A program made the translations under genes and the position numbers. Positions 12,486 to 62,072 of a stretch of 64,000 nucleotides of DNA are shown here, piece by piece. Every line of letters starts with the position of its first letter. Within the stretch, counting starts at the first letter, position 1. The notes beneath the pieces were generated by a model. The model was not told the DNA's origin. It worked only from the letters and a program-made list of their open reading frames with translations, and did not search any database. The DNA is from Candidatus Pantoea bituminis (GTDB lineage Bacteria; Pseudomonadota; Gammaproteobacteria; Enterobacterales; Enterobacteriaceae), in NCBI RefSeq assembly GCF_018842675.1, contig NZ_JAGTWO010000004.1, positions 3,162,001 to 3,226,000 on the forward strand. The letters run 5' to 3'.

Positions 12486-13619
12486 TTATCGGGTCAAGTC
12501 ATCAAAGAACTTCTTTACGCCATCAAAAAAGCTTTTTGAGCGCGGGCTGTTGTGCTCACCGCTTGGTCCGCCAAAGCTCTCTTCCAGTTCACGCAGCAGC
12601 GATTTCTGTTTTTCGTTGAGGCTAACCGGGGTTTCCACCACAACGCGACACAGCAAGTCGCCGACTGCGCCACCGCGCACCGACTTCACCCCTTTGCCAC
12701 GCATACGGAACAGCTTGCCCGTTTGCGTTTCAGTAGGCACTTTCAGCTTCACACGACCATCCAGCGTCGGCACTTCAATTTCGCCGCCCAGCGCTGCCAT
12801 CGCAAAATTGATCGGCACTTCGCAATAGAGGTTGTTATCTTCACGTTCAAAGATCGGGTGTTTCTTCACCGATACCTGAACATAAAGATCGCCCGCTGGT
12901 GCACCGTGCTCACCCGCTTCACCTTCGCCAGTCAGACGAATACGATCGCCGGTATCCACACCCGCAGGGATTTTCACTGACAGCGTTTTCGATTTCTCGA
13001 CGCGTCCATGACCATGACAGGCGTTGCACGGGTCTTTAATCACCGAGCCACGACCGTGACAGGTTGGACAGGCTTGCTGCACGGTGAAGAAACCTTGACG
13101 CATCTGCACCTGGCCTTGGCCATGGCAGGTAGAACAGGTTTGCGGTTTGGTGCCGGCTTTCGCGCCGCTGCCGTGGCAAACTTCACACTCTTCCAGCGTT
13201 GGAATGCGGATCTCTTTGGTCACGCCGCGTACCGCTTCTTCCAGCGACAGCTCCATGTTGTAGCGTAAATCAGCGCCACGGGATGCGCGCTGACGGCGAC
13301 CACCACCAAAGATGTCGCCAAATACGTCGCCAAAGATATCGCTGAAATCTGCACCGCCGCCGCCACCGAATCCACCGCCGCCCATACCGCCTTGTTCAAA
13401 GGCTGCATGGCCATATTGATCGTAGGCCGCACGCTTCTGCGCGTCGGTCAGGATTTCGTAAGCTTCTTTTATCTCTTTAAACTTGTCTTCGGCCGCTTTA
13501 TCCCCAGGATTACGGTCCGGGTGAAATTTCATTGCCAGGCGTTTATATGCCTTTTTGATTTCACGCTCGTCTGCGGATTTGGCGACGCCTAAAATCTCGT
13601 AGTAATCACTCTTCGCCAT
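12486..13619 (-). CDS. dnaJ: Chaperone protein DnaJ (Hsp40)
   Basis: DnaJ delivers substrates to DnaK and stimulates its ATPase. Of 377 residues (E. coli 376), the J domain covers 1-70 with HPD at 33-35. A Gly/Phe-rich linker follows (about 75-105). The zinc domain has four CxxCxGxG repeats ([32 protein letters not shown]). The C-terminal substrate-binding domain ends the protein. It is the second gene of the dnaKJ heat-shock operon, 104 bp after dnaK. Confidence 0.97.
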
Positions 13620-13643
13620 ATTTATTTAGCCCTTAACATGATC

Positions 13644-13676
13644 GCACGGGCGTGGAGAAAACTCCTACGCCCGTGC
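13644..13676. repeat. Strong hairpin in the dnaK-dnaJ intergenic spacer
   Basis: A 9-bp perfect GC-rich stem (GCACGGGCG / CGCCCGTGC) with further pairing inside lies between the dnaK stop and dnaJ start. It has no T-run. It may stabilise the dnaK message or attenuate dnaJ expression; both roles are inference. Confidence 0.55.
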
Positions 13677-13723
13677 TGGTTTCAACGGCTGTCAGGCCAA
13701 CCGTCGCGCCCGGTCAGGGGCAA

Positions 13724-24882: not shown

Positions 24883-24909
24883 GATATTCACTCTCCTGAA
24901 TTTGAGCCG

Positions 24910-24946
24910 AAAAAAAGCCCGCACTGGTTAGGTGCGGGCTTTTTTC
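24910..24946 (-). terminator. thr operon attenuator
   Basis: AGCCCGCAC / GTGCGGGCT stem with a seven-base loop, followed on the minus strand by a run of T. It lies between thrL and thrA. It is the transcriptional attenuator that is relieved when ribosomes stall on the Thr/Ile codons of thrL. Confidence 0.92.
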
Positions 24947-24964
24947 TATTTTATCCTGTATGCG

Positions 24965-25033
24965 TCAGCCCGCACCGTTACCTGTAGTAATGGTGGTGGT
25001 AATAATTGTGGTAATCAGGCTGAAGTTACGCAT
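24965..25033 (-). CDS. thrL: thr operon leader peptide
   Basis: A 22-codon frame begins MRNFSLI, continues with runs of Thr and Ile codons (seven Thr and four Ile in eleven consecutive codons) and ends TTGNGAG before TGA. The ending is identical to the E. coli leader. The 3' part of the gene (GGTGCGGGCTGA) repeats the attenuator stem sequence, so an alternative pairing is possible. Translation of this peptide senses threonyl- and isoleucyl-tRNA supply. Confidence 0.93.
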   Translation of the reverse strand: MRNFSLITTIITTTITTGNGAG

Positions 25034-30453: not shown

Positions 30454-32373
30454 CTAGTAACGGCGATTCCACTCACCATCCGAAAGGATCTTATCCGGCT
30501 GGCCCATAAAGTGACGATAGTACGCATCATAAGCCAACACGTTCTTCACATAGCCACGCGTTTCTGAGAACGGAATGGTTTCAATAAACGCGACCGCATC
30601 GAGATTTCCTGCGCTGGTTTTCTGCCAACTTCGCACACGGCCGGGGCCAGCATTATAGGCTGCTGAAGCAAAAATGCGGTTCTGCCCAAACTGCTGGAAA
30701 ACATACTCCAGATACTGCGTACCAATCTGAATATTGGTTTGCGGATCCAGCAACTGGCTGTTATTCACGTAACCGGGAATGTTATACATCTTCACGGTAT
30801 GGGTAGCCGTACCCGGCATAATTTGCATCAAACCGCTTGCGCCCACCGGTGAACGAGCTTTAGGGTTCCACGCACTTTCCTGACGAGAGATCGCCATCGC
30901 ATAGCTTTGCGGAATGCCTTTATCGCGGGTGTATTGCTGATAAAGACTTTGCCATGCTAGTGGGAAACGCTCTTTTAAGCTGTCCCACATTTTCGCGGTG
31001 ATGGTGGCTTGTACACTGAGATCCCACCAATCCTGCTCGTTGGCGTAGCGCGCCAGCATCTGTTGCTGCACGTGCGTTCTGCTCGCCACCAGATTCGCCC
31101 ACTCGCTACGCGCCAGGTTATCCAGTCCCCAATACATCAGCTCACGCACGCGCGCCAACTCCGCGCCTTGCAGCGTGGTACTGTCGGGTTTCGGAGCGGC
31201 ATCGACCTGCAACGGATAATCCACGCCTAAACGCTGCGCTGCGACCATCGGATAATAACCACGTTGCTTCATCAGCTTACGTAGGATCTCTTCCGCCTCT
31301 TCTTTGCGGTTTTGTGAAAAGAGCAGGTCAGCTTGCCAATATTGCCACTCATCTTTCTCTTTGGCTTCCACCGGCAGGCGGGCAATCCAGGTGTTCAGGC
31401 TACGACGATTGTTTTCGCTTAAGGCCAGACGCACGCGACGTTCCACCAGCGCCGTTGATTCGCTGTTCATCACTACCGCATCACGCCAGCGCGCCTGCTC
31501 GGAGGTCAGATCGCTGCCCATCATGCGCCACACCACAATCTCTTTCAGCGCCTGTTCGTCGGCCGCTTCCATCTTTTGCGCACGCACTAAGATCGGAATC
31601 ATGCTGCGGGCATTTTCCATGTCCTCACGCGCTACACGCGTAAAGGCGTAGATCGTGGCCTGGCGGGTAAAATCGGTTGGGCCGACTGCGCTGGCAAAGG
31701 TGGTGACCGAAAGCGGATCTTTCTGCAAAGCCAACACGGCATCGGCCATGGTTTGATAATCGGCAGGCAGCATTTTTGCCAGATAACTGACCAGGCTGTC
31801 ATTGCCCGCTTTCATCGCGAGGCGAATACGCTCCAGAATAGTGATTGGCGAAAGCTGACCGGACGATTGCCATGCCGAGAAAAGCGCGTCGCAGTCATTA
31901 GGCAAGGCAGTGCCGCGCAGCCAAATCGCTTTCGCGCCCTCAAAGGCGGCTTGCTGCTGCCCGGTTGCCCATTTGGCGTAATACCAGTTACAGCGCGCCT
32001 GTACCGGTTTGGGTTCAGTCGGGCTGAAGGTCAACACACCTTGCCAGTCTTGACGATGTGCCAGCACATTGACGAAGCGCGTGCTCAGCGATCTTGCGGG
32101 CGGCAAAGTAGGATATTTTTGAATGAAATTCTTTACCGCCAGGCTGGTCTCCTGATCGAGATCCTGCGCCAGCAAACGATATTCCAGATACGGATACAGA
32201 GGGTAATCCTGTAGCGTGGGCAACAGTTGATCCACCGTCGCCATCTGATTGCTGTCCCAGGCTTGCTTAATTTGTTGATAACGTTGCCGTTGTTGATCGA
32301 GCGAGTCAGCCCATACGCTGCTGGCCGTGCTGACCAGACAAATCCCTATCATCCAGTTACGCCACTTCTCCAC
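30454..32373 (-). CDS. slt: Soluble lytic murein transglycosylase Slt70
   Basis: Slt is a periplasmic enzyme that cleaves peptidoglycan to 1,6-anhydromuropeptides. It has 639 residues (E. coli 645). A signal peptide (to SVWADS) is followed by the alpha-helical U/L superhelix. The C-terminal lysozyme-like domain has the catalytic Glu in MAISRQESAWNP. Further motifs are GASGLMQIMPGTA and SAAYNAGPGRV. trpR follows. Upstream the E. coli neighbour ettA is displaced by the 18-kb island. Confidence 0.96.
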   Translation of the reverse strand: MEKWRNWMIGICLVSTASSVWADSLDQQRQRYQQIKQAWDSNQMATVDQLLPTLQDYPLYPYLEYRLLAQDLDQETSLAVKNFIQKYPTLPPARSLSTRFVNVLAHRQDWQGVLTFSPTEPKPVQARCNWYYAKWATGQQQAAFEGAKAIWLRGTALPNDCDALFSAWQSSGQLSPITILERIRLAMKAGNDSLVSYLAKMLPADYQTMADAVLALQKDPLSVTTFASAVGPTDFTRQATIYAFTRVAREDMENARSMIPILVRAQKMEAADEQALKEIVVWRMMGSDLTSEQARWRDAVVMNSESTALVERRVRLALSENNRRSLNTWIARLPVEAKEKDEWQYWQADLLFSQNRKEEAEEILRKLMKQRGYYPMVAAQRLGVDYPLQVDAAPKPDSTTLQGAELARVRELMYWGLDNLARSEWANLVASRTHVQQQMLARYANEQDWWDLSVQATITAKMWDSLKERFPLAWQSLYQQYTRDKGIPQSYAMAISRQESAWNPKARSPVGASGLMQIMPGTATHTVKMYNIPGYVNNSQLLDPQTNIQIGTQYLEYVFQQFGQNRIFASAAYNAGPGRVRSWQKTSAGNLDAVAFIETIPFSETRGYVKNVLAYDAYYRHFMGQPDKILSDGEWNRRY

Positions 32374-32485
32374 GTAAATCTCCTCTGTTTCTGGGCTCCG
32401 GCTACGTGCCAGACTTTCTTCATGCTAACCAGGCCATTGCGCTCTTGCCATGTTCTTCACAAAATTTACTCAACGTGAGCCAAAC

Positions 32486-32522
32486 GCACTGCAATTGCGC
32501 AAACCCTGCGCTGCGGTTGTGC
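32486..32522 (+). promoter_or_regulatory. Candidate pair of NtrC enhancer sites for the urea operon
   Basis: Two sites fit GCACY-N5-RGTGC imperfectly: GCACTGCAATTGCGC (32486-32500) and GCGCTGCGGTTGTGC (32508-32522). Their centres are 22 bp apart, two helical turns, so they would lie on the same DNA face. They lie roughly 90-130 bases before the predicted sigma-54 start site, a usual enhancer distance. Each has two or three mismatches, so this is a prediction only. No gene is seen in 32374-32642. Confidence 0.45.
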
Positions 32523-32586
32523 ATTTTATCATCAGTTAAACTTATGACGGGTGAACTTTAACCCTCAGATCATAGCGTTAAAAATC

Positions 32587-32602
32587 TGGCACAGCCTTTG
32601 CT
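32587..32602 (+). promoter_or_regulatory. Sigma-54 promoter of the urea operon
   Basis: TGGCACAGCCTTTGCT fits the sigma-54 consensus TGGCAC-N5-TTGCW exactly, with GG and GC ten bases apart. It would start transcription near 32613, about 30 bases before the allophanate hydrolase ATG. This implies control by RpoN with an enhancer protein, most likely NtrC under nitrogen limitation. Confidence 0.8.
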
Positions 32603-32642
32603 CTGTTGAATTCCATCTTGTATACCAGTTGGAATTCATCGC

Positions 32643-34439
32643 ATGGCTTCGACATTTGGCTTGACCCTTAACGAGTGGCAGCAGCGCTACCAACAGGAAC
32701 CGCAACAGATCTACACGCTGCTGCAAACGCATCTGGCAGCGCTTAATACCCAAGACAACGCCTGGCTCTATTTGGCGACACCCGCCCAGCTTAACGCCCA
32801 GATCGAGCCGCTGCTGGCCAGCTATCTACGCAACCCTGCGGCGCTTCCGCTGTTCGGTGTGCCTTTCGCCGTGAAAGACAATATTGATGTCGCGGGCTGG
32901 CCCACCACCGCCGCCTGCCCCGCTTTCACTTATACTGCCGAAAAAGACGCCTTTGTTGTCGCGCAACTTAAAGCCGCAGGCGCGATTGTGATCGGTAAAA
33001 CTAATCTCGATCAATACGCCACGGGTTTGGTCGGCACACGTTCGCCCTTTGGTGCGGTATGCAACACCTTTGATGCCGACTATGTCAGTGGCGGTTCCAG
33101 TTCCGGCTCGGCTTCAGTACTGGCGCGTGGTTTAGTCGCGTTCTCATTAGGCACCGATACCGCCGGTTCAGGTCGCGTTCCCGCCGGATTCAACAATATG
33201 GTGGGTCTGAAACCGACTAAAGGCTGGTTTTCTGCCAGCGGCGTTGTTCCGGCCTGCCGCCTGAATGACACCATTTCGGTGTTCGCCTTAACGGTAGAAG
33301 ATGCCTTCATCGTTGCCAGCGTAGCTGGCGGTTACGACGCTGATGATGCCTATTCACGTCACAATCCTCATACCGCGCCCGCCAGTATGAAAGCGCATCC
33401 CGACTTCGCCATTCCGGCTAACCCAGAGTTTTTTGACGATGCTGCGGCTGAAGGCGCGTGGGATCAGGCGTTGGAAGCATTATTGGCCAGCGGTGCAACA
33501 TTGCATCCTATCGATTTCACCCCTTTTGAAAAATTAGCTGAACAGCTCTATTACGGCCCGTGGGTCGCAGAGCGCACCGTGGCCGTCGGGGAGATGATTA
33601 ATCGACCGGAAGAGATGGATCCGGTGGTTCACGGTATCGTTTCCAGCGGCCTGAAATACAGCGCGGTTCAGGCTTATGAAGCGGAATATCTGCGCGCTGA
33701 ATTGACGCGTCAAATTCAGCAAACGCTGGCGCAGTTTGATGCGCTGGTGGTGCCGACTTCACCCACCATTCACACCCAGGAAGAGATGAAGCAGGAGCCG
33801 GTGCATTACAACTCGCACTTTGGTTATTACACCAACTTCACCAACCTAGCCGATCTTGCTGCGTTGGCGCTGCCTGCGCCGTTTCGCAATGACGATTTAC
33901 CGGCAGGCATCACGCTGATTGCACCGGCCTGGCACGATCGTGCACTAGCGGACTTTGGCCTGCGCTGGCAGCAACAAATGGCGCTGCCGCTGGGCGCGAC
34001 CGGTAGAGCTCAGCCCGCGGTTCACGCCGCACTGCCCGTTTCAACCGATCACGTGCGCGTCGCTGTGGTGGGTGCGCACCTTACCGGAATGCCGCTCAAC
34101 TTCCAGCTCACCACGCGTCAGGCCGTTTTCGTTGAAGAGACGCAAACCGCCCGCTGTTATCGCCTGTTTGCGCTGCTGGATGGCCCCATCAAAAAGCCAG
34201 GCCTGATGCGCGCTGAGCAAGGCTCTGCCATCACCGTCGAGTTGTGGGATATCCCACTGGCGCGCTTCGGTGAATTTGTGGCGGAAATTCCCGCGCCGCT
34301 GGGCATTGGCAGCTTGACGCTGGCAAATGGCCGCGTGGTGAAAGGCTTTATTTGTGAAGGTTCCGCGCTGAACAGCGCGCTGGAGATTACCGAATTTGGT
34401 GGCTGGCGTAACTGGCTCGCTGCTCAGGGGAGTAACTAA
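32643..34439 (+). CDS. atzF: Allophanate hydrolase
   Basis: This 598-residue enzyme hydrolyses allophanate to ammonia and carbon dioxide, the second step of ATP-dependent urea breakdown. The amidase-signature domain (about 1-450) has the catalytic Lys K78 in GVPFAVKDN, the serine-rich loop GGSSSGSA (150-157) and the nucleophile S176 in GTDTAGSGR. A C-terminal domain (about 460-598) of the kind that completes allophanate breakdown follows. It is the first gene of the operon, three bases before urea carboxylase. The start has only a weak Shine-Dalgarno sequence. Confidence 0.92.
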   Translation: MASTFGLTLNEWQQRYQQEPQQIYTLLQTHLAALNTQDNAWLYLATPAQLNAQIEPLLASYLRNPAALPLFGVPFAVKDNIDVAGWPTTAACPAFTYTAEKDAFVVAQLKAAGAIVIGKTNLDQYATGLVGTRSPFGAVCNTFDADYVSGGSSSGSASVLARGLVAFSLGTDTAGSGRVPAGFNNMVGLKPTKGWFSASGVVPACRLNDTISVFALTVEDAFIVASVAGGYDADDAYSRHNPHTAPASMKAHPDFAIPANPEFFDDAAAEGAWDQALEALLASGATLHPIDFTPFEKLAEQLYYGPWVAERTVAVGEMINRPEEMDPVVHGIVSSGLKYSAVQAYEAEYLRAELTRQIQQTLAQFDALVVPTSPTIHTQEEMKQEPVHYNSHFGYYTNFTNLADLAALALPAPFRNDDLPAGITLIAPAWHDRALADFGLRWQQQMALPLGATGRAQPAVHAALPVSTDHVRVAVVGAHLTGMPLNFQLTTRQAVFVEETQTARCYRLFALLDGPIKKPGLMRAEQGSAITVELWDIPLARFGEFVAEIPAPLGIGSLTLANGRVVKGFICEGSALNSALEITEFGGWRNWLAAQGSN

Positions 34440-34442
34440 ACC

Positions 34443-37400
34443 ATGTTCAGTACCGTGTTGATTGCTAACCGTGGCGAGATCGCCTGTCGCGCCATTCGTA
34501 CCCTCAAACGCCTCGGCGTAAAAGCGTCGCGGTCTATTCCGATGCTGACCGCAATGCGCAGCACGTAAAAGATGCGGATGTGGCTATTGCGTTAGGCGGT
34601 GACAAAGCCAGCGACAGCTATTTGCGTATCGACAAAATTTTAGCGGCTGCCAAAGAAACCGGCGCGGAAGCTATCTGGCCTGGCTACGGTTTTCTCTCTG
34701 AAAGTCTGCCGTTTGCGGATGCCTGCGAGCAGGCCGGTATCGCCTTTGTTGGCCCCACCGCACAGCAGATTGGTGAGTTTGGTTTGAAGCATCGCGCACG
34801 TGAACTGGCGGCCAGCGCCGGCGTACCGATGACGCCAGGCACGCCGCTGCTGGCTTCGCTGGACGACGCGCTGAGCGCCGCTGAACAGATTGGTTATCCG
34901 GTCATGCTAAAAAGCACTGCCGGCGGCGGTGGCATTGGCCTGACGCGCTGTGCCGATGCCGACGCGCTTCGCAATGGCTGGGAAAGTGTGCGGCGTCTCG
35001 GTGAGCAATTTTTTAGCGATGCCGGTGTGTTTCTCGAACGCTGCATCGACCGCGCCCGCCATGTAGAAGTGCAAATCTTCGGCGACGGCAGCGGCAAAGT
35101 CGTGGCGTTGGGTGAGCGCGATTGTTCACTGCAACGTCGCAATCAAAAAGTGGTAGAAGAGACGCCTGCTCCGAATTTGCCACACGCTACGCGTGACGCC
35201 CTGCTCTCTTCAGCGGTGCGTCTTGGTGAGTTAGTGAATTACCGCAGCGCCGGTACAGTGGAATATATTTACGACGCCGAACAGGATGCTTTTTACTTCC
35301 TCGAAGTGAACACGCGTTTGCAGGTAGAACATCCGGTCACTGAATGCGTCACCGGTCTCGATCTGGTGGAATGCATGCTGAAAGTGGCAGCAGGCGAAAG
35401 TATCGATTGGGCGCGTCTGCAACAGGCTCCACAAGGTGCATCCATTGAAGTGCGCCTGTATGCCGAAGATCCGTTGAAAAACTTTCAGCCTAGCCCCGGC
35501 GTATTAACCGGCGTCAGCTTCCCGGAAGGCGTGCGCATTGATGGCTGGATCGACACCGGAACTGAGGTCTCCAGTTTTTACGACCCGATGGTCGCCAAGC
35601 TGATTGTTCACGCCGACACACGTGAAGCCGCGCTGGAAAAGCTGCAGACTGCGCTCAACGCCACGCAGTTGCACGGCATTGCCACCAACCTCGACTATTT
35701 GCGCCAGATTATTGCAACGGATGCCTTTCGCAGCGGCAAAGTCTGGACGCGCTTCCTCGACAGCTTCACGCCAGCCGCCTCGGTGATTGAAGTGCTGCAA
35801 CCTGGCACCTTTAGCTCGATTCAGGATTTCCCTGGTCGCCTCGGCTATTGGGATATTGGCGTGCCGCCCTCCGGGCCGATGGATGACTTCGCTTTTCGCC
35901 TGGCGAACCGCATCGTCGGCAATCATGAAGCCGCTGCCGGTCTGGAATTTACCTTGCAAGGCCCGACCCTGCGCTTTCACAGCGAGGCAACCATTGCATT
36001 AACGGGCGCCGATTGCGCCGCCACGCTGGATGGCGAAGCAGTAAATTACTGGCAACCGCTGACGGTCAAACCGGGACAAACATTGACGTTGGGCCGTGCG
36101 CAGAGTGGCTGCCGCAGTTATCTGGCGGTGCGCAACGGTTTTGACGTGCCGGAATATCTCGGCAGCCGATCGACCTTCTCGCTGGGTCAGTTTGGCGGTC
36201 ACGCCGGTCGTACGTTGCGCGTTGCAGATATGCTGGCCATTTCTCAGCCGCAGCTTGCCGCCTGCACCACACCGGCACCGGTTAGCGAACCGCAAGCGCT
36301 GGATAACGCGCTGGTGCCGCATTACGGCACGGAATGGCGTATCGGCGTGCTGTATGGCCCACACGGCGCACCCGACTTTTTCACTCAGGCCGCCATTGAC
36401 GCGTTCTTCGCCAGCGACTGGCAAGTGCATTACAACTCCAACCGCTTAGGCGTGCGCTTAGTGGGCCCGAAACCGAGCTGGACTCGCGCCAACGGCGGCG
36501 AAGCTGGCCTGCATCCTTCGAACGTGCATGATTGCGAATACGCTATCGGCGCGGTGAACTTTACTGGCGACTTCCCGGTGATCCTGACGCACGACGGCCC
36601 AAGCCTTGGCGGTTTCGTCTGCCCTGTGACCATCGCCAAAGCGGAATTATGGAAAGTCGGCCAGGTGAAACCGGGCGACAAAATTCGTTTCCATCCAATT
36701 GGAGCCAGTGAAGCGCTAGCGCTGGAAAAAGCGCAGATGCATGTGGTAGAGACGCTGCGCCCCGAACACGCGCCGAAATTTGATGTGCCTTCGCTGGCAG
36801 AAACTGCGTTTGGCTCAGCCACTATTCTGGCTGCTATTGATGCCACCGAACACACACCAAAAGCGGTTTATCGCCAGGCGGGCGACAAATATGTGCTGAT
36901 CGAATATGGCGATAACGTATTGGATCTGGCGCTGCGTTTACGGGTGCACTTGTTGATGAATGCGCTGCGCGAACAGGCGGTGCCGGGTGTGGAAGAGCTT
37001 TCGCCAGGCGTTCGCTCTTTGCAGGTGCGCTATGACAGCCGCATCCTCAGCCAGTCGCAGCTCATGCACGTCTTGTTAGGGCTGGAAGCCACGCTTGGCG
37101 ACGTCAGCACGTTGAAAGTGCCGTCACGTATTGTCTGGATGCCGATGGCGTTCGAAGACAGCGCCACCTTAGGCGCGGTCGAGCGCTATCAGGAAACGGT
37201 GCGCGCCAGCGCGCCGTGGCTGCCAAATAATGTCGACTTTATCCAACGCATTAACGGCTTAGCCAGCCGCGAAGCGGTGCGCGATACGATTTTCGATGCC
37301 AGCTATTTAATTCTCGGCTTGGGCGATGTTTACCTTGGCGCACCTTGCGCGGTGCCGATAGATCCCCGTCATCGCCTGTTGAGCTCCAAATACAGCCCGG

Positions 37401-38059
37401 CGCGCACCTTTACCGCGGAAGGCACCGTGGGTATCGGCGGCATGTACATGTGCATCTACGGCATGGATTCACCCGGCGGTTATCAGTTGGTAGGCCGTAC
37501 GCTGCCGATCTGGAACAAATTCCTGAAAAACAGTCAGTTTGCTGCTGACGAACCTTGGCTGCTGCACTTTTTCGATCAGGTACGTTTCTATCCGGTGAGC
37601 GAAGCGGAGCTGAATCAGCTACGCGATGACTTCCGTGAAGGCCGCGCCACCCTCCGTATTGAAGAAACGCTGTTCGACTTTGCTGAGCATCAACAATTCC
37701 TGGCAAATAACGCCGAATCGATTGCCGACTTCCGTCAGCGTCAGTCGGCCGCTTTCGAACAGGAAGTCACGCTCTGGGCGCAGGAAGAGCAGAGCGCGCC
37801 GCTGACCAGCGAAGAGACATTACACGTCATGGAAGAGGACGACAGCGCATTCGCGGTGCAGGCCGATATGAACGGCAACATCTGGAAAGTAGTGGTGCAG
37901 CCGGGCGACGACATCGAAGCGGGTCAGACGCTGATCATTGTGGAAGCGATGAAGATGGAGTTGGCGATTGTCGCGCCGCAAGCGGGTCGAGTGAAACGCA
38001 TTGCCTGTCAGGCGGGCCGTCCGGTCAGTCCCGGCGATACGCTGCTGTGGCTGGAATAA
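34443..38059 (+). CDS. uca: Urea carboxylase, frame broken by one missing base
   Basis: This biotin enzyme carboxylates urea with ATP and bicarbonate to allophanate. The restored length is 1205 residues, usual for the family. The order is biotin carboxylase (about 1-450, with [13 protein letters not shown] and [14 protein letters not shown]), a KipA/AHS2-type half (from about 455, [20 protein letters not shown]), a KipI/AHS1-type half (from about 810) and a C-terminal biotinyl domain with VEAMKME (biotinyl lysine about 1171). The frame from ATG 34443 breaks at codon 27. It is restored by one A in the run 34520-34523 ([18 protein letters not shown]). A sister family acts on guanidine; the urea transporter here favours urea. 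Confidence 0.9.
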
Positions 38060-38068
38060 GGAGCGTTG

Positions 38069-38769
38069 ATGTCATCTCCAATGCAACGCGGTAAAGGACG
38101 CCCGGAAGCGCTGGCAGAGCGCGTTTATCAGGCGTTGAAAAACGATATTTTCGAGTTCCGCCTGATGCCCGGCGATCGCTTTAGCGAGAATGAAATCGCC
38201 GAGCGCATGGAAGTGAGCCGCACACCAGTGCGCCAGGCACTTTTCTGGCTGGAGCGTGAAGGCTACGTCGAGGTCTGGTTTCGCAGCGGCTGGCAGATCA
38301 AGAACTTTGACTTCGAATATTTCGAAGAGCTGTACGACCTGCGCACCGTGCTGGAGTGCGAGGCGGTAAAACGCCTGTGCGCCTTGCCATCTGAACAGTG
38401 CGCCGCGCTGTTAACTGAACTCAAACAATTTTGGATTCAGGCGGAGCGGCTAGAAGAGGAAAAACCGTTTCGCAGCACGATGAGGCGTTTCATATGACGC
38501 TGGTGGCGTCGGCGGGGAACCGTGAAATGGCGCGTATCCACGCGGAGTTAACCGAAAAAATTCGCATTATCCGTCGTCTCGACTTTACCCGTGACGATCG
38601 TGTTGATGCGACTTACCAGGAACACGCTCAGATTTTACAGGCGATCTTTCAGCAACGGACCGAGGAGGCGCAGCGCATCCTGACCAACCATATCGCCGTC
38701 AGTAAGGCGGAGGTCAGGAAAATCACCTTACACATGTTACAGCAGGCCCGGCTTCAACCCATTGAATAA
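38069..38769 (+). CDS. GntR/FadR-type (FCD) transcriptional regulator, frame broken by one missing base
   Basis: The restored protein has 233 residues. The winged-helix GntR domain (about 10-75) contains FSENEIAERMEVSRTPVRQAL. The FCD effector domain follows, with the metal-site stretch HDEAFHMTLV and HAQILQAI. The frame breaks near codon 132 and is restored by one A in the run 38460-38464 (KTVSQHDEAFH). ATG 38069 has AAGGAG five bases upstream. Its place inside the urea operon suggests it is a local regulator, but its ligand cannot be read from the sequence. Confidence 0.85.
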
Positions 38770-38798
38770 CTCAAAACACATTTAGGGGTTCTAAAACG

Positions 38799-40067
38799 AT
38801 GAAAAGACGTTCGTTGCTCAAGGCTTTCGCACTCTCCGCTACGGTTGTCAGCATGGGCCTTTCCTGGGGCGCTCAGGCTGCCGACACCATAAAAGTGGGG
38901 ATCATGCACTCCCTTTCCGGGACCATGGCGATTTCAGAAACACCGCTGAAAGATGTGGCGCTGATGACCATTGATGAGATCAATGCCAAAGGCGGCGTGC
39001 TGGGCAAAAAGCTGGAACCGGTGGTGGTCGATCCCGCGTCTAACTGGCCGCTGTTCGCCGAAAAAGCGCGTCAGCTTCTAACACAGGATAAAGCCGCAGT
39101 GGTGTTTGGCTGCTGGACGTCGGTATCGCGTAAATCGGTACTGCCGGTATTTGAAGAGCTAAATGGCCTGCTGTTCTATCCGGTGCAGTATGAAGGCGAA
39201 GAGATGTCGCCCAATGTCTTTTATACCGGTGCAGCGCCAAACCAGCAGGCGATTCCCGCAGTGGAATACCTGATGAGTGAAGATGGCGGCAGCGCCAAAC
39301 GCTTCTTTCTGTTAGGCACTGATTACGTTTACCCACGCACCACCAACAAGATTCTGCGATCTTTCCTCCACTCGAAAGGCGTGCAGGATAAAGATATTGA
39401 AGAGGTCTACACGCCGTTTGGTTACAGCGATTATCAAACTATCGTCTCTAACATCAAGAAGTTTGCGACGGGCGGCAAAACAGCGGTGGTCTCCACCATC
39501 AACGGTGACTCCAACGTGCCGTTCTACAAAGAGCTGGCAAACCAAGGCATCAAAGCTACCGATATTCCGGTTGTGGCTTTCTCGGTGGGCGAAGAGGAAC
39601 TGCGCGGCATTGACACTAAACCGTTGGTCGGCCAGTTAGCGGCGTGGAACTACTTTGAATCGGTTGATAACCCAACCAACGCGAAGTTTGTGGCGGATTA
39701 CCGTGCCTATGCCAAGGCGCATAATCTGCCGAATGCTAACTCTGTTGTGACTAACGATCCAATGGAAGCGACCTATGTCGGCATTCATATGTGGGCGCAG
39801 GCGGTAGAAAAAGCGGGCACCACCGATGTAGATAAAGTGCGTGCAGCGATGGCGGGCCAAACCTTTAAAGCGCCGGACGGCTTTACGTTGACCATGGATC
39901 AGACCAATCACCATCTGCATAAACCGGTGATGATCGGTGAAGTGGAGGAGAATGGTCAATTCAACGTGGTGTGGCAGACCGATCAACCCGTACGTGCGCA
40001 GCCGTGGAGCCCGTATATCGCGGGTAATGACAAAAAGCCTGACCATCCGGTGAAAACGACGCAGTAG
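38799..40067 (+). CDS. urtA: Urea ABC transporter substrate-binding protein
   Basis: UrtA is the periplasmic urea-binding protein of the UrtABCDE importer. It has 422 residues. A signal peptide with an Arg-Arg pair (MKRRSLLKAFAL) ends near GAQA-ADTIK. Family stretches are VGIMHSLSGTMAISETPLKD, FGCWTSVSRKSVLPVFEE, GLLFYPVQYEGEE and TNDPMEATYVGIHMW. It lies 29 bases after the GntR gene and is followed by a 350-base repeat-rich spacer before urtB. Confidence 0.93.
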   Translation: MKRRSLLKAFALSATVVSMGLSWGAQAADTIKVGIMHSLSGTMAISETPLKDVALMTIDEINAKGGVLGKKLEPVVVDPASNWPLFAEKARQLLTQDKAAVVFGCWTSVSRKSVLPVFEELNGLLFYPVQYEGEEMSPNVFYTGAAPNQQAIPAVEYLMSEDGGSAKRFFLLGTDYVYPRTTNKILRSFLHSKGVQDKDIEEVYTPFGYSDYQTIVSNIKKFATGGKTAVVSTINGDSNVPFYKELANQGIKATDIPVVAFSVGEEELRGIDTKPLVGQLAAWNYFESVDNPTNAKFVADYRAYAKAHNLPNANSVVTNDPMEATYVGIHMWAQAVEKAGTTDVDKVRAAMAGQTFKAPDGFTLTMDQTNHHLHKPVMIGEVEENGQFNVVWQTDQPVRAQPWSPYIAGNDKKPDHPVKTTQ

Positions 40068-40100
40068 GTTAGGCGTCTGCTGCCTCCAAACTCTGTAAGA

Positions 40101-40369
40101 GGTTAGGTGGCTGCTGTCCCCACCTCGGTCCTCCCCCACGCGTGGGGGAGGAAGACGCTGCTAAATGTTAGCCACTAAGCCGCGTGCAGCACGATCTTCT
40201 CCTTCCCCGCGTGCGGGGAAGGCTGGGATGGGTAGGTTAGGTGCCTGCTGTCCCCCACCTCGGTCCTCCCCACCCGTGGGGGAGGAAGACGCTGCTAAAT
40301 GTCAGCCACTAAGCCGCGTGCAGCACGATCTTCCCCTTCCCCCGCGTGCGGGGAAGGCAGGGATGGGGG
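40101..40369. repeat. Tandem duplication of a 134-bp unit carrying two REP-like palindromes
   Basis: Two imperfect copies (40101-40234 and 40235-40369) lie head to tail between urtA and urtB. A fragment of the unit start (GGTTAGG...CTGCTG) also lies at 40067-40100. Each copy carries a C/G-rich palindrome containing CTCCCCCACGCGTGGGGGAG in copy 1 (slightly decayed in copy 2) and a second palindrome with CCTTCCCC / GGGGAAGG arms. The same second palindrome recurs at 53983-54004, so it belongs to a dispersed family. No gene is seen in 40068-40419. The folded RNA could stabilise the urtA message. Confidence 0.85.
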
Positions 40370-40419
40370 ACCGCACGCACCTTACCCGCATTTTTATCAG
40401 ACCAACGAGGCCCAATCCT

Positions 40420-41984
40420 ATGAATCTTCGCCTCTGCCTGTTTAGCCTGCTGCTGTGGCTGCCGCTTTTTGCCAACGCCGGACCGGCAGCGGATTTCGCT
40501 GCGGCCAGCCGCACCCAACAGGCAATGCTATTACAACAGTGGGCAGCCGCGCCGGAAGCCAGTCGTTTGCCGCTGCTGCAAGCACTGAAAGCCGAAACCG
40601 TGGTCATCGATCAGAAAAAACAGCCTTTCAGTAAAGTCGGCGACGCTCTGCTGCCGTTAGACGCCAGCCCGCAGCCTGAAGGCGACGTAAAAAAGTCTTC
40701 ATGAATAACCGGTTACGCGTTCTGGTTACGGGTGCACTCGCCGCTCACCAGTTAGTCAGCGACGATGCGAATGTCCGCCTGCGCGCCGCTCAACAACTGC
40801 AGAATGACGGCGTCGCTGACCAGCTACCGCTGATTGAACAACGCCTCGCCGCTGAACAAGAGAGCCGCGTTCACGCTGCGCTGGCGATGGCTATCGCTAA
40901 CCTGCAACTGGCCGATCCTCAACCGTTGGTGCGTCTGAAAGCCGTGAAGCTGCTCGGCGATTCCAGCGATCCTAACACCCAAGCCAGCCTGCAACGCTTA
41001 ACTCAGGCGGCTAACGAACCTGACGCGACAGTGCGTGACGCCGCTGCCGAAAGCTTGCAGCGAATCCAAAAACGGTTGATGTGGGGCGATCTGCTGGGTC
41101 AGGCGTTTAGTGGTCTTTCGCTCGGATCGATTCTGCTGTTAGCTGCGCTGGGCCTGGCGATTACTTACGGCCTGCTCGGCGTGATTAACATGGCCCACGG
41201 CGAAATGCTGATGCTGGGCGCTTACGCCACCTGGTTTGTGCAAAACCTGTTTCAGCAGTTTGCACCGCACTATCTGGCCTGGTATCCGCTGCTGGCGCTG
41301 CCGGTGGCTTTTTTGGTCACCGCCTGCATCGGCATGGCGCTGGAGCGCACCATCATTCGTCATCTGTATGGTCGCCCGCTGGAAACCTTGCTGGCGACAT
41401 GGGGCATCAGCCTGATGCTGATCCAACTGGTACGCGTGCTGTTTGGGGCACAAAACCTGGAAGTTGCTAACCCGGAATGGCTGTCGGGCGGCTTGCAGGT
41501 GCTGCCAAATCTGGTACTGCCGTGGAACCGCATTGCAGTGATCCTGTTTGTCATTGGGGTAATGGCGCTGACCTGGCTGCTGTTGAATCGCACCCGCCTT
41601 GGCATGAATGTGCGCGCAGTAACGCAAAACCGCGCCATGGCAGATTGCTGCGGCGTGCCCACGGGTCGTGTGGATATGCTCGCATTCGGCTTAGGTTCCG
41701 GCATTGCCGGTCTTGGCGGCGTGGCGCTGTCGCAGTTGGGCAACGTCGGCCCGGAACTCGGTCAAGGCTACATCATCGACTCGTTTCTGGTGGTGGTGCT
41801 GGGCGGCGTCGGCCAACTGGCGGGCACCGTTGTCGCGGCCTTCAGTCTTGGCATTCTTAACAAAGTGCTGGAGCCGCAAATCGGTGCCGTGCTGGGGAAA
41901 ATATTGATTCTGGTAATTATCGTGTTGTTCATCCAGAAGCGTCCGCAAGGCCTGTTTGCCGTTAAAGGAAGGGTGATTGACTGA
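40420..41984 (+). CDS. urtB: Urea ABC transporter permease UrtB, frame broken by one missing base
   Basis: UrtB is one of the two membrane subunits of the urea importer. The restored length of 521 residues is usual for UrtB, which carries an N-terminal periplasmic extension. A signal peptide (MNLRLCLFSLLLWLPLFANA) and an extension with short helical repeats (to about 215) precede the LivH-like permease domain with AITYGLLGVINMAHGEMLML. The frame from ATG 40420 breaks near codon 91. It is restored by one A in the run 40689-40694 (GDVKKVFMNNRLRVLVTGAL). Its stop overlaps the urtC ATG by one base. Confidence 0.9.
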
Positions 41985-43060
41985 TGACGCAACCCATAAC
42001 CTTAACCGTGGCGCGTAGAGCACCGCGTCTCACGCTCAGCATCGGTATGCTGCTGACCCTCGCGCTGCTGGTGATGCCCTTTCTGGCGCTGCTGCCCGCC
42101 GCACATCCGTTAGCCATTTCCACCTACACGCTGACGCTGGTGGGCAAAATCCTCTGTTATGCCGTGGTAGCGGTAGCGCTCGATCTGGTGTGGGGTTACG
42201 CCGGATTGTTGTCGCTGGGCCACGGGCTGTTTTTCGCCTTGGGCGGTTACGCCATGGGCATGTACCTGATGCGTCAGGCATCAGGCGACGGCATGCCCGC
42301 TTTTATGTCATTCCTCTCGTGGAATGAGATGCCGTGGTTTTGGGCAGGCACCCAACATTTTGCCTGGGCGCTGTGCCTGATTGTGTTGGTGCCCGGTTTG
42401 CTGGCGCTGGTGTTCGGCTTCTTCGCCTTCCGCTCAAAAATCAAAGGTGTGTACTTCTCGATCATGACGCAGGCGCTGACTTACGCGGGCATGCTGCTGT
42501 TTTTCCGCAACGAAACTGGCTTTGGCGGCAACAACGGTTTCACCGGTTTTACCACCCTGCTCGGCTTCAATGTCACCGCCACCAGCACGCGCATTGGGCT
42601 GTTTGTCGCCACGGTCTTATTGCTGCTGCTTAGCCTGGCAGTGGGTTTTTCACTGGCACGCAGCAAGTTTGGCCGGGTGTTGACGGCCGTTCGCGATGCC
42701 GAAAACCGCCTGATGTTTTGTGGTTACGATCCCCGAGGTTTCAAGCTGTTTGTCTGGACGCTCTCTGCAGTGCTGTGTGGCCTGGCGGGCGCGCTTTACG
42801 TGCCGCAGGTTGGCATTATCAACCCCAGCGAAATGTCGCCCACTAATTCGATCGAAGCCGCCATTTGGGTGGCGCTCGGCGGTCGCGGCACGCTGATTGG
42901 CCCGCTGTTGGGCGCTGGCATTGTCAATGGTGCCAAAAGCTTCTTCACCGTTGCTTTCCCGGAATACTGGCTGTTTTTCCTCGGCCTGATGTTTATCCTG
43001 GTCACGCTGTTTCTGCCGCGTGGCGTAATTGGCCTGCTGCGTCGGAGGAAAGATGACTGA
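41984..43060 (+). CDS. urtC: Urea ABC transporter permease UrtC
   Basis: UrtC is the second membrane subunit, of the LivM type. It has 358 residues and about nine membrane helices. Family stretches are ALDLVWGYAGLLSLGHGLFFALGGYAMGMYL, NETGFGGNNGFTGF, NRLMFCGYDP and WVALGGRGTLIGPLLGA (quoted in part). It starts at ATG 41984 overlapping the urtB stop and ends inside the urtD start, which points to translational coupling. Confidence 0.93.
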   Translation: MTQPITLTVARRAPRLTLSIGMLLTLALLVMPFLALLPAAHPLAISTYTLTLVGKILCYAVVAVALDLVWGYAGLLSLGHGLFFALGGYAMGMYLMRQASGDGMPAFMSFLSWNEMPWFWAGTQHFAWALCLIVLVPGLLALVFGFFAFRSKIKGVYFSIMTQALTYAGMLLFFRNETGFGGNNGFTGFTTLLGFNVTATSTRIGLFVATVLLLLLSLAVGFSLARSKFGRVLTAVRDAENRLMFCGYDPRGFKLFVWTLSAVLCGLAGALYVPQVGIINPSEMSPTNSIEAAIWVALGGRGTLIGPLLGAGIVNGAKSFFTVAFPEYWLFFLGLMFILVTLFLPRGVIGLLRRRKDD

Positions 43061-43850
43061 ACCTTTACCGCTGTTTACCCAACCGCACCGCGCGGATCGC
43101 CACCGTGCGCAAACCGATCCGATCCTGCAGCTGGAAAAGATCAACGTCTCGTTTGATGGCTTTCGCGCCCTAACCGATCTTTCCCTGCAGATCGGCGTAG
43201 GTGAATTGCGCTGTGTGATCGGCCCCAACGGTGCCGGTAAAACCACGTTGATGGATGTGATCACCGGAAAAACCCGGCCCGATAATGGCCGGGTAATCTA
43301 CGACCAGAACAGCGATTTCACCCAGCTTTCGCCAGTAGAAATTGCACGCGCGGGGATTGGCCGCAAGTTTCAAAAACCCACGGTGTTTGAGGCGCTGACG
43401 GTATTTGAAAACCTTGAAATTGCCCTGAAAGCGGATAAATCCGTGTGGGCCAGCTTGCGCGCCCGTCTGAGCGGCGAGCAGCAGGATCGTATTGATGAAG
43501 TCTTAAAACTGCTGCGTTTGGGCGGTGAGCGCCAGCGCAAAGCGGGTTTGCTGTCACACGGACAAAAGCAGTTTCTGGAGATTGGCATGTTGCTGGTGCA
43601 GGAACCGCATCTGCTGCTGCTGGATGAACCGGCGGCGGGCATGACCGATGCCGAAACTGAGTACACCGCCGAACTGTTTCGCAGCCTGGCGGGTAAACAT
43701 TCGCTGATGGTGGTGGAACACGACATGGGTTTTGTTGAAACCATCGCCGATCACGTCACGGTATTGCATCAAGGTCAGGTTTTGGCTGAGGGATCGTTGC
43801 GCGAAGTACAGGCCAACGAACAGGTAATCGACGTTTATTTGGGACGCTGA
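43053..43850 (+). CDS. urtD: Urea ABC transporter ATP-binding protein UrtD
   Basis: UrtD is a LivG-like ATPase of the urea importer, with 265 residues. Walker A is GPNGAGKTT, the signature is LLSHGQKQFLEIGMLL, and Walker B is LLLLDEPAAGMTDAE. The switch His is in VVEHDMGFVE. I chose ATG 43053 (MTEPLPLFTQ), which has GGAGGAAAG just upstream; it overlaps urtC by 8 bp. An upstream in-frame alternative at 43029 has no support. Confidence 0.93.
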   Translation: MTEPLPLFTQPHRADRHRAQTDPILQLEKINVSFDGFRALTDLSLQIGVGELRCVIGPNGAGKTTLMDVITGKTRPDNGRVIYDQNSDFTQLSPVEIARAGIGRKFQKPTVFEALTVFENLEIALKADKSVWASLRARLSGEQQDRIDEVLKLLRLGGERQRKAGLLSHGQKQFLEIGMLLVQEPHLLLLDEPAAGMTDAETEYTAELFRSLAGKHSLMVVEHDMGFVETIADHVTVLHQGQVLAEGSLREVQANEQVIDVYLGR

Positions 43851-43851
43851 G

Positions 43852-44549
43852 ATGCTACAGGTTTCTGAACTGAATCAATATTATGGCGGCAGCCACATTC
43901 TGCGCGGCCTCTCTTTTGAGGTGAAGATCGGCGAAGTGACCTGTTTGCTGGGCCGTAACGGCGTAGGCAAAACCACGTTGCTAAAATGCCTGATGGGATT
44001 GATTGCCGCCAAGTCAGGGGAAATTCGCTGGCAGGATAAAGTGATTAATTCACGCAAACCGCATCAGCGCGTGCAATCCGGCATCGCTTACGTACCGCAG
44101 GGCCGCGAGATTTTCCCCGTCTGACGGTGGAAGAGAACCTACTGATGGGACTGTCGCGCTTCTCCGCGTCGCAGGCGAAACAGGTGCCAGATGAGATCTA
44201 TCAGCTTTTCCCGGTGCTGTTTCAGATGAAATCACGTCGTGGCGGTGATCTTTCTGGCGGTCAGCAGCAGCAATTGGCGATTGGCCGCGCACTGGCGTGT
44301 CGCCCGCAACTGTTGATCCTCGACGAGCCCACAGAAGGGATCCAGCCTTCGGTGATCAAAGAGATCGGCGCGGTGATCCGCCAGCTGGCACAGCGCGGTG
44401 ATATGGCGATCTTATTAGTCGAGCAGTTCTATGACTTTGCGGCGGAACTGGCAGACAATTATCTGGTGATGTCGCGTGGCGAAATCGTTCAGCGCGGGCG
44501 TGGCGATAGCATGGAAGCGGAAGGCGTGCGCGGGTTAGTGGCAATATAG
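43852..44549 (+). CDS. urtE: Urea ABC transporter ATP-binding protein UrtE, frame broken by one missing base
   Basis: UrtE is the LivF-like ATPase of the urea importer. The restored length of 232 residues is normal. Walker A is GRNGVGKTT, the signature is DLSGGQQQQLAIGRAL, and Walker B is LLILDEPTEGIQPS. The frame breaks after IAYVPQGREIFP and resumes as LTVEENLLMGLSRF. One C added to the run 44115-44118 joins the parts. It is the last gene of the urea operon, one base after urtD. Confidence 0.92.
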
Positions 44550-44558
44550 CCGCGATTT

Positions 44559-44580
44559 AAGGCAGCCTTGCGGCTGCCTC
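44559..44580 (+). terminator. Likely terminator of the urea operon
   Basis: AGGCAGCC / GGCTGCCT stem with a four-base loop lies ten bases after the urtE stop. The T-run is poor, so termination strength is uncertain. It sits between the convergent urt and deo modules. Confidence 0.5.
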
Positions 44581-44587
44581 ACTGACC

Positions 44588-45604
44588 TTACAGCAGGCCG
44601 GTTTCAACCGAAAAATGCCGCTGCTCGCCCGGCGCCAGTTCGATCAGCGTGCCGGCCTGTTTCGCTGCTAAAAAGCCTTCTGGCCGACAGGTGGCGGGCA
44701 GGATATAGGCTGCAACCTGCTGATCGCGATTATGCAGTAACCAGCGCGTGGCATGCGGAAACTGCGCAGTGGAAAAGCGCGTCATCAAGGCGTAATCCTC
44801 TTGCGGCGAATGCAGTTCAAACTGTACTTCCTCACCATATTGCGCCAGATCGTCAGCAAAAAAGACGATCTCAGGATCGCACATCTGCGGTTGATCCAAC
44901 TGCTGTAAAGATTGGGGATCCCGCGCCAACCGATCGGTATATTCCCGCCAGGCTGGCGTAGGCCGCACATGCGCTGGGATGGTGGTGCGCAGCTGGAAAG
45001 CATCATCAGGGATCGACTGCTGGAAACGTCCCTGCTCCACCCATGCGCTGTTGAGATGGCACATGTACTGCAGCGGCATTGGCGCACCCGCAAGATTGGT
45101 GACTGTCATTTCGATATGCAGTCGCGCGTGATTGGCCTGCAAACGCACCGCCGGTGCCGCCAGATAATGATGACCAAACCCTTTCACATATTCGGTTTCA
45201 CCTTCCAGTGACACTCGCCCCTCTTCCAGCACGATCCAGGCGTTGTCCATGCGGGCGCACGCCATTTCGCCGTGCAGCGGATGATCATCCTCCGCTGAAG
45301 GACAGCCATTCGCCAGCAAACCGGAGTGAAAGGCGAAACAGCCGTAAGTATCAATAATTGAACTGCCCGGCAGCGGCTGCTTAAAGCTGTGGCCCATGGT
45401 CAGCGAATGCCCATCAAAGCTTGCTTGCCAGATCATCTGCCCGTAAAAGGGCAGCACGATCACCGTACCACGCCGATTGTGGATGCGTACCGCTTCGATG
45501 CCCGCAGGATAGCGAAACAGCTCTACTGTGAAATCTTCATTTTGCAGCAGCACGCCTGGCGTGGCGTGAAACTGCTCACGATGCAACGGTAAACGGGTTT
45601 TCAT
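44588..45604 (-). CDS. deoX: DeoX-like DUF4432 (aldose 1-epimerase-like) family protein
   Basis: This 338-residue protein resembles DUF4432/mutarotase-like beta-sandwich proteins (GTVIVLPFYGQMIWQA, HGEMACA, MPLQYMCHLN). In Salmonella the deoKPX operon for 2-deoxyribose ends with DeoX, a protein of similar size and unknown function. The name rests on that gene order. Its ATG overlaps the deoP stop by four bases. A role in sugar anomer handling is only inference. Confidence 0.7.
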   Translation of the reverse strand: MKTRLPLHREQFHATPGVLLQNEDFTVELFRYPAGIEAVRIHNRRGTVIVLPFYGQMIWQASFDGHSLTMGHSFKQPLPGSSIIDTYGCFAFHSGLLANGCPSAEDDHPLHGEMACARMDNAWIVLEEGRVSLEGETEYVKGFGHHYLAAPAVRLQANHARLHIEMTVTNLAGAPMPLQYMCHLNSAWVEQGRFQQSIPDDAFQLRTTIPAHVRPTPAWREYTDRLARDPQSLQQLDQPQMCDPEIVFFADDLAQYGEEVQFELHSPQEDYALMTRFSTAQFPHATRWLLHNRDQQVAAYILPATCRPEGFLAAKQAGTLIELAPGEQRHFSVETGLL

Positions 45605-61752: not shown

Positions 61753-61839
61753 GCGAAGGTGGCGGAATTGGTAGACGCGCTAGCTTCAGGTGTTAGTGTC
61801 TTAACGGACGTGAGGGTTCAAGTCCCTCTCTTCGCACCA
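61753..61839 (+). tRNA. leuV: tRNA-Leu (anticodon CAG), copy 1
   Basis: An 87-base class II tRNA beginning GCGAAGGTGGCGGAATTGG and ending TTCGCACCA, with encoded CCA and a long variable arm. The anticodon loop reads CTTCAGGT with anticodon CAG. Acceptor arms GCGAAGG / CTCTTCGC pair. It matches E. coli leuV/leuP/leuQ, which also lie beside rsmC. Confidence 0.96.
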
Positions 61840-61870
61840 AAATCACATATTTCATATCGCACAGCACTGC

Positions 61871-61957
61871 GCGAAGGTGGCGGAATTGGTAGACGCGCTA
61901 GCTTCAGGTGTTAGTGTCTTAACGGACGTGAGGGTTCAAGTCCCTCTCTTCGCACCA
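61871..61957 (+). tRNA. leuP: tRNA-Leu (anticodon CAG), copy 2
   Basis: Identical over all 87 bases to copy 1, with CCA encoded. The spacer to copy 1 is 31 bases. It belongs to the same polycistronic tRNA transcript. Confidence 0.96.
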
Positions 61958-61985
61958 ATGCGGTGATATGAAAAGACAACGCGAT

Positions 61986-62072
61986 GCGAAGGTGGCGGAA
62001 TTGGTAGACGCGCTAGCTTCAGGTGTTAGTGTCTTAACGGACGTGAGGGTTCAAGTCCCTCTCTTCGCACCA
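61986..62072 (+). tRNA. leuQ: tRNA-Leu (anticodon CAG), copy 3
   Basis: Identical to copies 1 and 2. The spacer to copy 2 is 28 bases. I saw no clear terminator after it; the convergent YjjZ-like gene begins 50 bases further on. Confidence 0.96.

Follow-up and report, generated by a model that had tools for sequence, protein, structure and literature searches.

The enterobacterial glnA promoter (glnAp2-type) combines a sigma-54 (-24/-12) element with two upstream NtrC sites, and we know of no GntR operator at glnA. A two-layer control has been described for the hut genes of Pseudomonas, in which NtrC or CbrB acts with sigma-54, and HutC, a member of the GntR family, acts as the repressor; as far as the excerpts of PMC12977541 and PMC8871633 go, hutU has a sigma-54 promoter, NtrC at two subsites, a GntR-family TGTA...TACA palindrome, and a dependence on both a local inducer and the nitrogen status. 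We report here that predicted features of the same kinds precede the urea operon atzF-uca-gntR-urtABCDE of Candidatus Pantoea bituminis, in a 64,000-nt stretch of its 5.2-Mb genome (contig NZ_JAGTWO010000004.1, positions 3,162,001 to 3,226,000; hereafter the window). With a probability of about 85%, we propose that the start of this operon is a two-input gate, at which activation by NtrC and sigma-54 would be combined with repression by the GntR protein. The parts are of known kinds and the finding is well supported; the one new component is the predicted GntR operator, and the predicted wiring is clear and testable.

Urea and allophanate genes are likewise linked to NtrC or sigma-54 in other taxa. 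The accessible part of PMC5343134 gives an NtrC-regulated atzF in Rhizobiales, and urease and urea transporters in several orders; in that of PMC5491218, an ntrC mutant of Burkholderia cenocepacia shows reduced expression of urease, urt and urea carboxylase genes; and in that of PMC12316311, COG3665 (59% "urea carboxylase") is among the predicted sigma-54 genes. The passages of these three articles make no mention of Erwiniaceae, of a GntR operator or of the present gene order. Pantoea (Kalamiella) piersonii, a near relative, has the same urea carboxylase/allophanate hydrolase pathway, whose expression was followed by qRT-PCR in the portion of PMC12951989 concerned; the words "NtrC" and "promoter" are absent from its main text. 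A literature search, conducted mostly without subscription papers, returned no report of the GntR operator or of the sigma-54 promoter in Erwiniaceae.

The sigma-54 element, TGGCACAGCCTTTGCT, occupies 32587..32602 on the plus strand. The original prediction described it as an exact fit to the consensus. This is correct for the GG, the GC and the spacing; over the whole consensus, TGGCACGNNNNTTGCW, 11 of the 12 informative positions agree, and an A stands in place of G after TGGCAC. No other 16-mer matches at 11/12 or better among the 127,970 positions on both strands of the window. On both strands of the genome, the core TGGCACN5TTGC occurs 27 times, as against 8 for the pattern read backwards, and by our own arithmetic the chance of a match on the right strand of a given 300 bp is about 1 in 1,300. 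Counting the window site, 16 of the 27 core matches do not fall within an open frame of 120 aa or more, and nine have an NtrC-like palindrome no more than 260 bp upstream. The transcript start, predicted only from the -12 position, would be near 32613.

Sigma-54 and NtrC-like sites elsewhere in the genome precede nac, hutH and a 124-aa open reading frame just before amtB, which by position would be glnK. The promoter before the glnA-ntrBC region, TGGCACAGAATTCGCT, is not among the 27 core matches; its sites, GCACCAAATTGGTGC and GCACAATATTGGTGC, are 32 bp apart (glnA was named by its place before ntrC and by its start). The promoters at glnA, amtB, nac and hutH served as same-genome controls, and ntrC itself was found in an open frame with 811.9 bits (cut-off, 558.6). 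Nothing unusual is apparent in the NtrC circuit of this genome, to which the urea leader seems to belong.

The sigma-54 site is kept in 39 of 41 loci, which is 39 of the 40 testable ones, from Pantoea to Xenorhabdus, at -52 to -75 from the atzF start. L047 was left out of the leader counts, its partial gene match starting at residue 361. The loci are related, and several are near-identical (L013-L016, L048), so that this and the following counts do not represent independent events. Both strands of the 41 loci contain 37 matches of at least 11/12, and 34 of these, counted by hand, are the leader sites. The conservation was also considered as a by-product of the divergent neighbor slt, a lytic murein transglycosylase gene outside the switch (30454..32373, minus strand; NF008631, 1143 bits; cut-off, 536). 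This was rejected: slt had no match in the locus of 14 of the 39 relatives that carry the site (among them L031, which has 1.2 kb upstream only). A second conserved block, CATGCTAACCAGG with CTCTTGCCATGTTCTTCACAAAATTTAC at window positions 32420-32470, is probably part of the divergent slt promoter. The leaders of L015 (Enterobacter cancerogenus M004) and L019 (Enterobacter ludwigii EnVs2) are Pantoea-like, and these names are probably wrong.

The NtrC consensus given in an excerpt of PMC8743547, TGCACCAnnnTGGTGCA, is of the 17-bp palindrome type. Two NtrC-like sites are found on the plus strand upstream of the sigma-54 element: site A, GCACTGCAATTGCGC (32486..32500; GCAC-N7-GCGC), has a consensus outer half and a degenerate inner half, and site B, GCGCTGCGGTTGTGC (32508..32522; GCGC-N7-GTGC), has a degenerate inner half and a consensus outer half. 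As originally predicted, the two sites are 22 bp apart (start to start) at enhancer distance, their centers lying some 120 and 98 bp upstream of the predicted transcript start. GCRC-N7-GYGC matches 22 times in the window, and sites A and B are the sole pair 22 bp apart. The sites were scored with a matrix built on ten further sites in this genome, eight collected with GCRC-N7-GYGC near sigma-54 matches and two at glnA. The paired score of A and B was 19.8 bits, which none of 1,452 control stretches reached (maximum, 15.6).

The best pair exceeded the shuffles in all 40 leaders that have a sigma-54 site (the window and 39 relatives), with p from 0.005, the floor, to 0.03. When the search was limited to 21-23 and 32-34 bp, the spacing was 22 bp in 32 leaders, 21 in seven and 33 in one; with free spacing of 17-50 bp, 29 of the 40 still chose 21, 22 or 33. 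The pair starts 99-102 bases upstream of the sigma-54 element in 29 leaders (site A being at -102 in most Erwiniaceae relatives, as in the window) and 112 bases upstream in one. In ten leaders, from Winslowiella, Erwinia, Pectobacterium and Brenneria, it starts 89-91 bases upstream, about one helical turn closer. Of what characterizes an NtrC enhancer, paired palindromes about 100 bp upstream, helical phasing and conservation are present.

The asymmetry of the two sites is also widespread. Outer halves are perfect in 28 (site A) and 36 (site B) of the 40 leaders, and inner halves in three and three. Exactly one half is perfect at both sites in 29 leaders; site A has none in nine, and site B has none in two and two in one. 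In L018 it is the inner half that is perfect at both sites; in L034 and L042 this holds for site A only. At glnA, by contrast, both halves are consensus and the sites are about three turns apart, whereas the urea sites are 22 bp apart with one degenerate half each. It is conceivable, but in our view doubtful, that a weak cooperative pair of this build sets a high threshold, such that the operon would fire only in deep nitrogen starvation, with a GntR roadblock at the transcript start rather than on the sigma-54 element; training of the matrix favors perfect halves, and the statement that the urea sites are weaker carries the same bias. If true, the gate would check both severe starvation and substrate.

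Between the promoter and the ATG lies a palindrome, GAATTCCATCTTGTATACCAGTTGGAATTC (32608..32637, without strand), which covers the predicted start and is a predicted GntR operator with the core TTGTATACCA. Its central 24 bases, spanning -2 to +22 of the predicted start, form 10 of 12 pairs (p 0.001), and it is near-constant across leaders in which the other leader sequence drifts. The 16-base core has one exact occurrence in the genome. With up to three mismatches it has 30 matches, compared with 21 for the reversed control; therefore, only the exact core site is informative. A 20-base version, searched with up to three mismatches in 16 relatives, had matches in 13, in 12 cases at the atzF site, which was the sole place in 8 of the 13.

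The palindrome varies with the presence of the regulator gene, and almost every leader that has gntR retains it. The mean number of palindromic pairs is 9.5 of 12 in 33 leaders with gntR (32 confirmed; L025 assumed, as its locus ends too early), 9.0 in two with a moved gntR, and 5.8 in five without gntR, three of which have lost the core. In two Brenneria genomes (L099, L102), gntR is not behind uca; it stands elsewhere, beside its own near-perfect copy of the palindrome, CCATCTTGTATACAAAATGG. The best GntR matches of the four Xenorhabdus with a full leader have only 21-24% identity; the core is lost in three of these leaders and the sigma-54 site is kept in all four. P. alcalifaciens has a gntR remnant only. 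This pattern supports the palindrome as a putative GntR operator that has followed its regulator in evolution, and with it the local layer of control, which the original prediction had only implied, gains support.

The regulator has GntR and FCD domains, although no NCBIfam cut-off was reached, and the FCD domain sets it apart from the HutC system of Pseudomonas. The sites differ as well: the HutC site, TGTA-N2-TACA in the excerpts cited above, overlaps the sigma-54 element, whereas the urea counterpart, TGTATACC, has no spacer and covers the predicted start instead. Operator-like sites were also seen away from the urea operon, at G009:C1:2268930-2268949 (a perfect 18-bp palindrome), G011:C68:41559-41578 and G000:C1:73834-73849 (L090); these are perhaps sites of other GntR-type regulators or further targets.

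The one testable leader of the 40 without a sigma-54 site is that of Hamiltonella (L020; 1.4 Mb, draft). In this genome, no match was found to rpoN (E 0.001), ntrC (E 1e-60) or the GntR protein (E 1e-8), and its atzF leader has no sigma-54 site, operator core or strict NtrC-type site; a right-arm fragment, GATGGAATTC, remains. This co-loss is that of one lineage with a draft genome. Among 13 other genomes tested, ntrC was above the cut-off in all 13, and rpoN in 12, being split into four pieces in one. The Hamiltonella defensa locus (NZ_CAADHL010000004.1) has a full-length atzF match of 83% identity, followed by an open 1,207-aa frame; these perhaps have a retained or acquired role in the recycling of nitrogen.

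Sequence and comparison show which elements are present, how they are conserved and phased, and that they are lost or moved along with the regulators; from this we infer binding, cooperativity, the transcript start, the sign of regulation and the ligand, as follows. Phosphorylated NtrC would bind sites A and B (32486-32522) as a cooperative pair and loop to the sigma-54 RNA polymerase held at 32587-32602, opening the promoter. The GntR/FCD repressor would sit on the palindrome at 32608-32637 and block initiation or promoter escape, until it is released by a ligand, possibly urea or its product allophanate. The operon would then need nitrogen starvation and the local signal together, and because gntR is inside the operon, the repressor would limit its own supply. 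The original view of the urea operon as an NtrC/sigma-54 unit is supported by the promoter in 39 of 40 testable relatives, the phased pair above shuffles, the intact ntrC, the glnA-type control sites and the co-loss.

Several observations weigh against the two-input gate. The single-site scores of A and B are 10.1 and 9.7 bits, compared with 12.5-19.6 for the ten training sites. Nine of the 40 leaders (L011, L012, L018, L026, L027, L029, L032, L034, L042) score below the control maximum of 15.6, and with free spacing 11 of the 40 choose 35, 40 or 41 bp. At rutA, a sigma-54 core is present without a strict NtrC-type site. As for the palindrome, L045 (without gntR) and L042 (with a gntR remnant) keep the operator core, and L034, which has gntR, forms 7 of 12 pairs (p 0.81); L012 forms 8 of 12 (p 0.08). 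Finally, both parts of rpoN were found in the genome, in two different frames; a genuine split would leave this strain with a dead promoter.

The genes of the operon all lie on the plus strand. The urea amidolyase pathway consists of atzF, encoding an allophanate hydrolase of 598 aa (32643..34439; TIGR02713, 795 bits; cut-off, 511), and uca, encoding urea carboxylase (34443..38059; TIGR02712, 1890 bits; cut-off, 1304), both above the curated cut-offs of the family models; the closest solved structures to Uca are 3va7 (KLLA0E08119p) and 5i8i (Urea Amidolyase). As previously claimed, the GntR regulator gene is inside the operon, as its third gene (38066..38769); its domains were taken from the intact copy of L076. 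The urea ABC transporter genes follow: urtA for the binding protein (38799..40067; TIGR03407, 592 bits; cut-off, 493), urtB (40420..41984; start set by alignment to L076) and urtC (41984..43060; TIGR03408, 434 bits; cut-off, 296) for the permeases, and urtD (43029..43850; TIGR03411, 377.5 bits; cut-off, 304) and urtE (43852..44549; two TIGR03410 pieces, each alone below the cut-off of 285.8) for the ATPases. The set had been called complete; atzF, uca and urtA-E were indeed all identified, but in the assembly uca, gntR, urtB and urtE each have a broken reading frame.

The equivalog model and the Urt transporter favor urea over guanidine as the putative substrate. A guanidine carboxylase operon, which would be expected to have carboxyguanidine deiminase genes alongside and a guanidine riboswitch, was considered but gained no support, with no carboxyguanidine deiminase family among the genes of 32643-44549 and no guanidine riboswitch among the five Rfam matches of the window. 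These matches are three tRNAs in a row with identical scores (61753-62069), a threonine leader (24908-25026) and a tpke11 RNA (13617-13693). No match to a urease alpha-subunit was found in the genome, and the operon is therefore its likely route to urea use. The nearest atzF match in the named collection, which possibly does not include the species of the window, is that of Mixta mediterraneensis (L009; 90% identity), and the DNA of the window belongs to Erwiniaceae, with Mixta as its nearest relation. Between urtA and urtB, at 40100-40367, a unit of about 134 bp occurs twice (88% identity over 109 nt), and when aligned with M. mediterraneensis the region seems to hold about 250 additional bases; a search for an 18-letter repeat pattern gave nothing useful. 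An atzF with a uca frame was seen in three Pectobacterium loci, L036 (P. brasiliense CFBP8736, 1,226 aa), L037 (sp. PL152, 1,083 aa) and L040 (P. aroidearum L6, 1,226 aa). An excerpt of PMC10991766 states that within Pectobacterium only P. betavasculorum has a cluster for urea carboxylase and allophanate hydrolase; the type of cluster meant there may be a different one.

Five frame changes were located: in uca near 34520, gntR near 38460, urtB near 40690, urtE near 44115 and rpoN (L073, near 2463). All are near runs of 4-6 identical bases; for uca, none was seen in 34480-34520, and the wider stretch 34500-34560 revealed a run at 34520. The stretches inspected were 30-60 bases long, and runs of four are no rarity at that length. 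Long-read errors often fall near runs of identical bases, and the four breaks in the urea operon, like that in rpoN, are probably such sequencing artefacts. Among the relatives, intact gntR copies exist, and in 34 of 39 loci the uca frame reaches 1,180 aa or more. The uca-region frame of L009 is interrupted by an in-frame stop at 6338, and the longest such frame is below 1,180 aa in L013, L031, L037 and L039; these five may reflect decay or errors in the sequence or, in the case of L031, the end of the contig.

The alternative that survives best is that, in this strain, the operon is a relic in decay and its switch a fossil. The four broken frames, the in-frame stop in uca of the nearest relative and the two repeat copies between urtA and urtB fit this reading. 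We nevertheless consider it improbable, given that the leader elements are intact, that long uca frames prevail in the relatives and that rpoN breaks in the same way; the position of all five breaks near base runs argues in the same direction, weakly, such runs being common.

Somewhat less probable still is a genuine activation by NtrC and sigma-54 in which the palindrome does not serve as a GntR operator but forms a leader hairpin in the RNA that masks the ribosome-binding site, or is simply conserved leader sequence. Its right arm holds the likely ribosome-binding site GGAA, a gntR-less Xenorhabdus leader (L046) keeps, by eye, complementary outer arms around a changed center, and the core retained in L042 and L045 without a full gntR also fits an RNA element. 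Against it, the left arm starts upstream of the predicted transcript start, and 195 of 200 shuffles fold better than the predicted leader RNA (z +1.7; the fold depends on the predicted start). A hairpin or riboswitch was also unsupported by the Rfam matches of the window. The palindrome at the relocated gntR of the two Brenneria genomes and the loss of the core in three of the five leaders without gntR favor a GntR operator instead.

We regard it as very unlikely that the sigma-54 site is served by another enhancer-binding protein and that the GCAC arrays are not NtrC sites. The genome does encode further proteins matching the AAA part of the NtrC model, and the single sites score low, as noted above; however, urea genes are under NtrC in other taxa (the cited passages of PMC5343134 and PMC5491218). 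The pair and its distance, moreover, are similar to those at glnA in this genome and have been kept in relatives ranging from Mixta to Xenorhabdus. No more credible is expression mainly from a sigma-70 promoter with a minor role of the sigma-54 site, or through NAC as a relay, as in the control of Klebsiella urease: the genome does have nac, preceded by sigma-54 and NtrC-like sites, but direct NtrC-like sites are present in the urea leader, and the scan for sigma-70 promoters, which was also blank for the divergent slt and so can miss real promoters, found none in 32300-32643 on either strand and three in 32300-45000 (shuffle mean, 5.4).

The frame breaks near base runs mean that gene calls from this assembly need care. 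The proposed pair of repressor and operator would be dedicated to urea carboxylase, and no such pair was found in the literature searched. Comparison of the leaders yields a precise wiring diagram, namely the bases at which contacts by NtrC, by the sigma-54 polymerase and by the local GntR repressor are expected. Lineages that lack one of the regulators and also lack its site would provide natural experiments on the decay of layered control.

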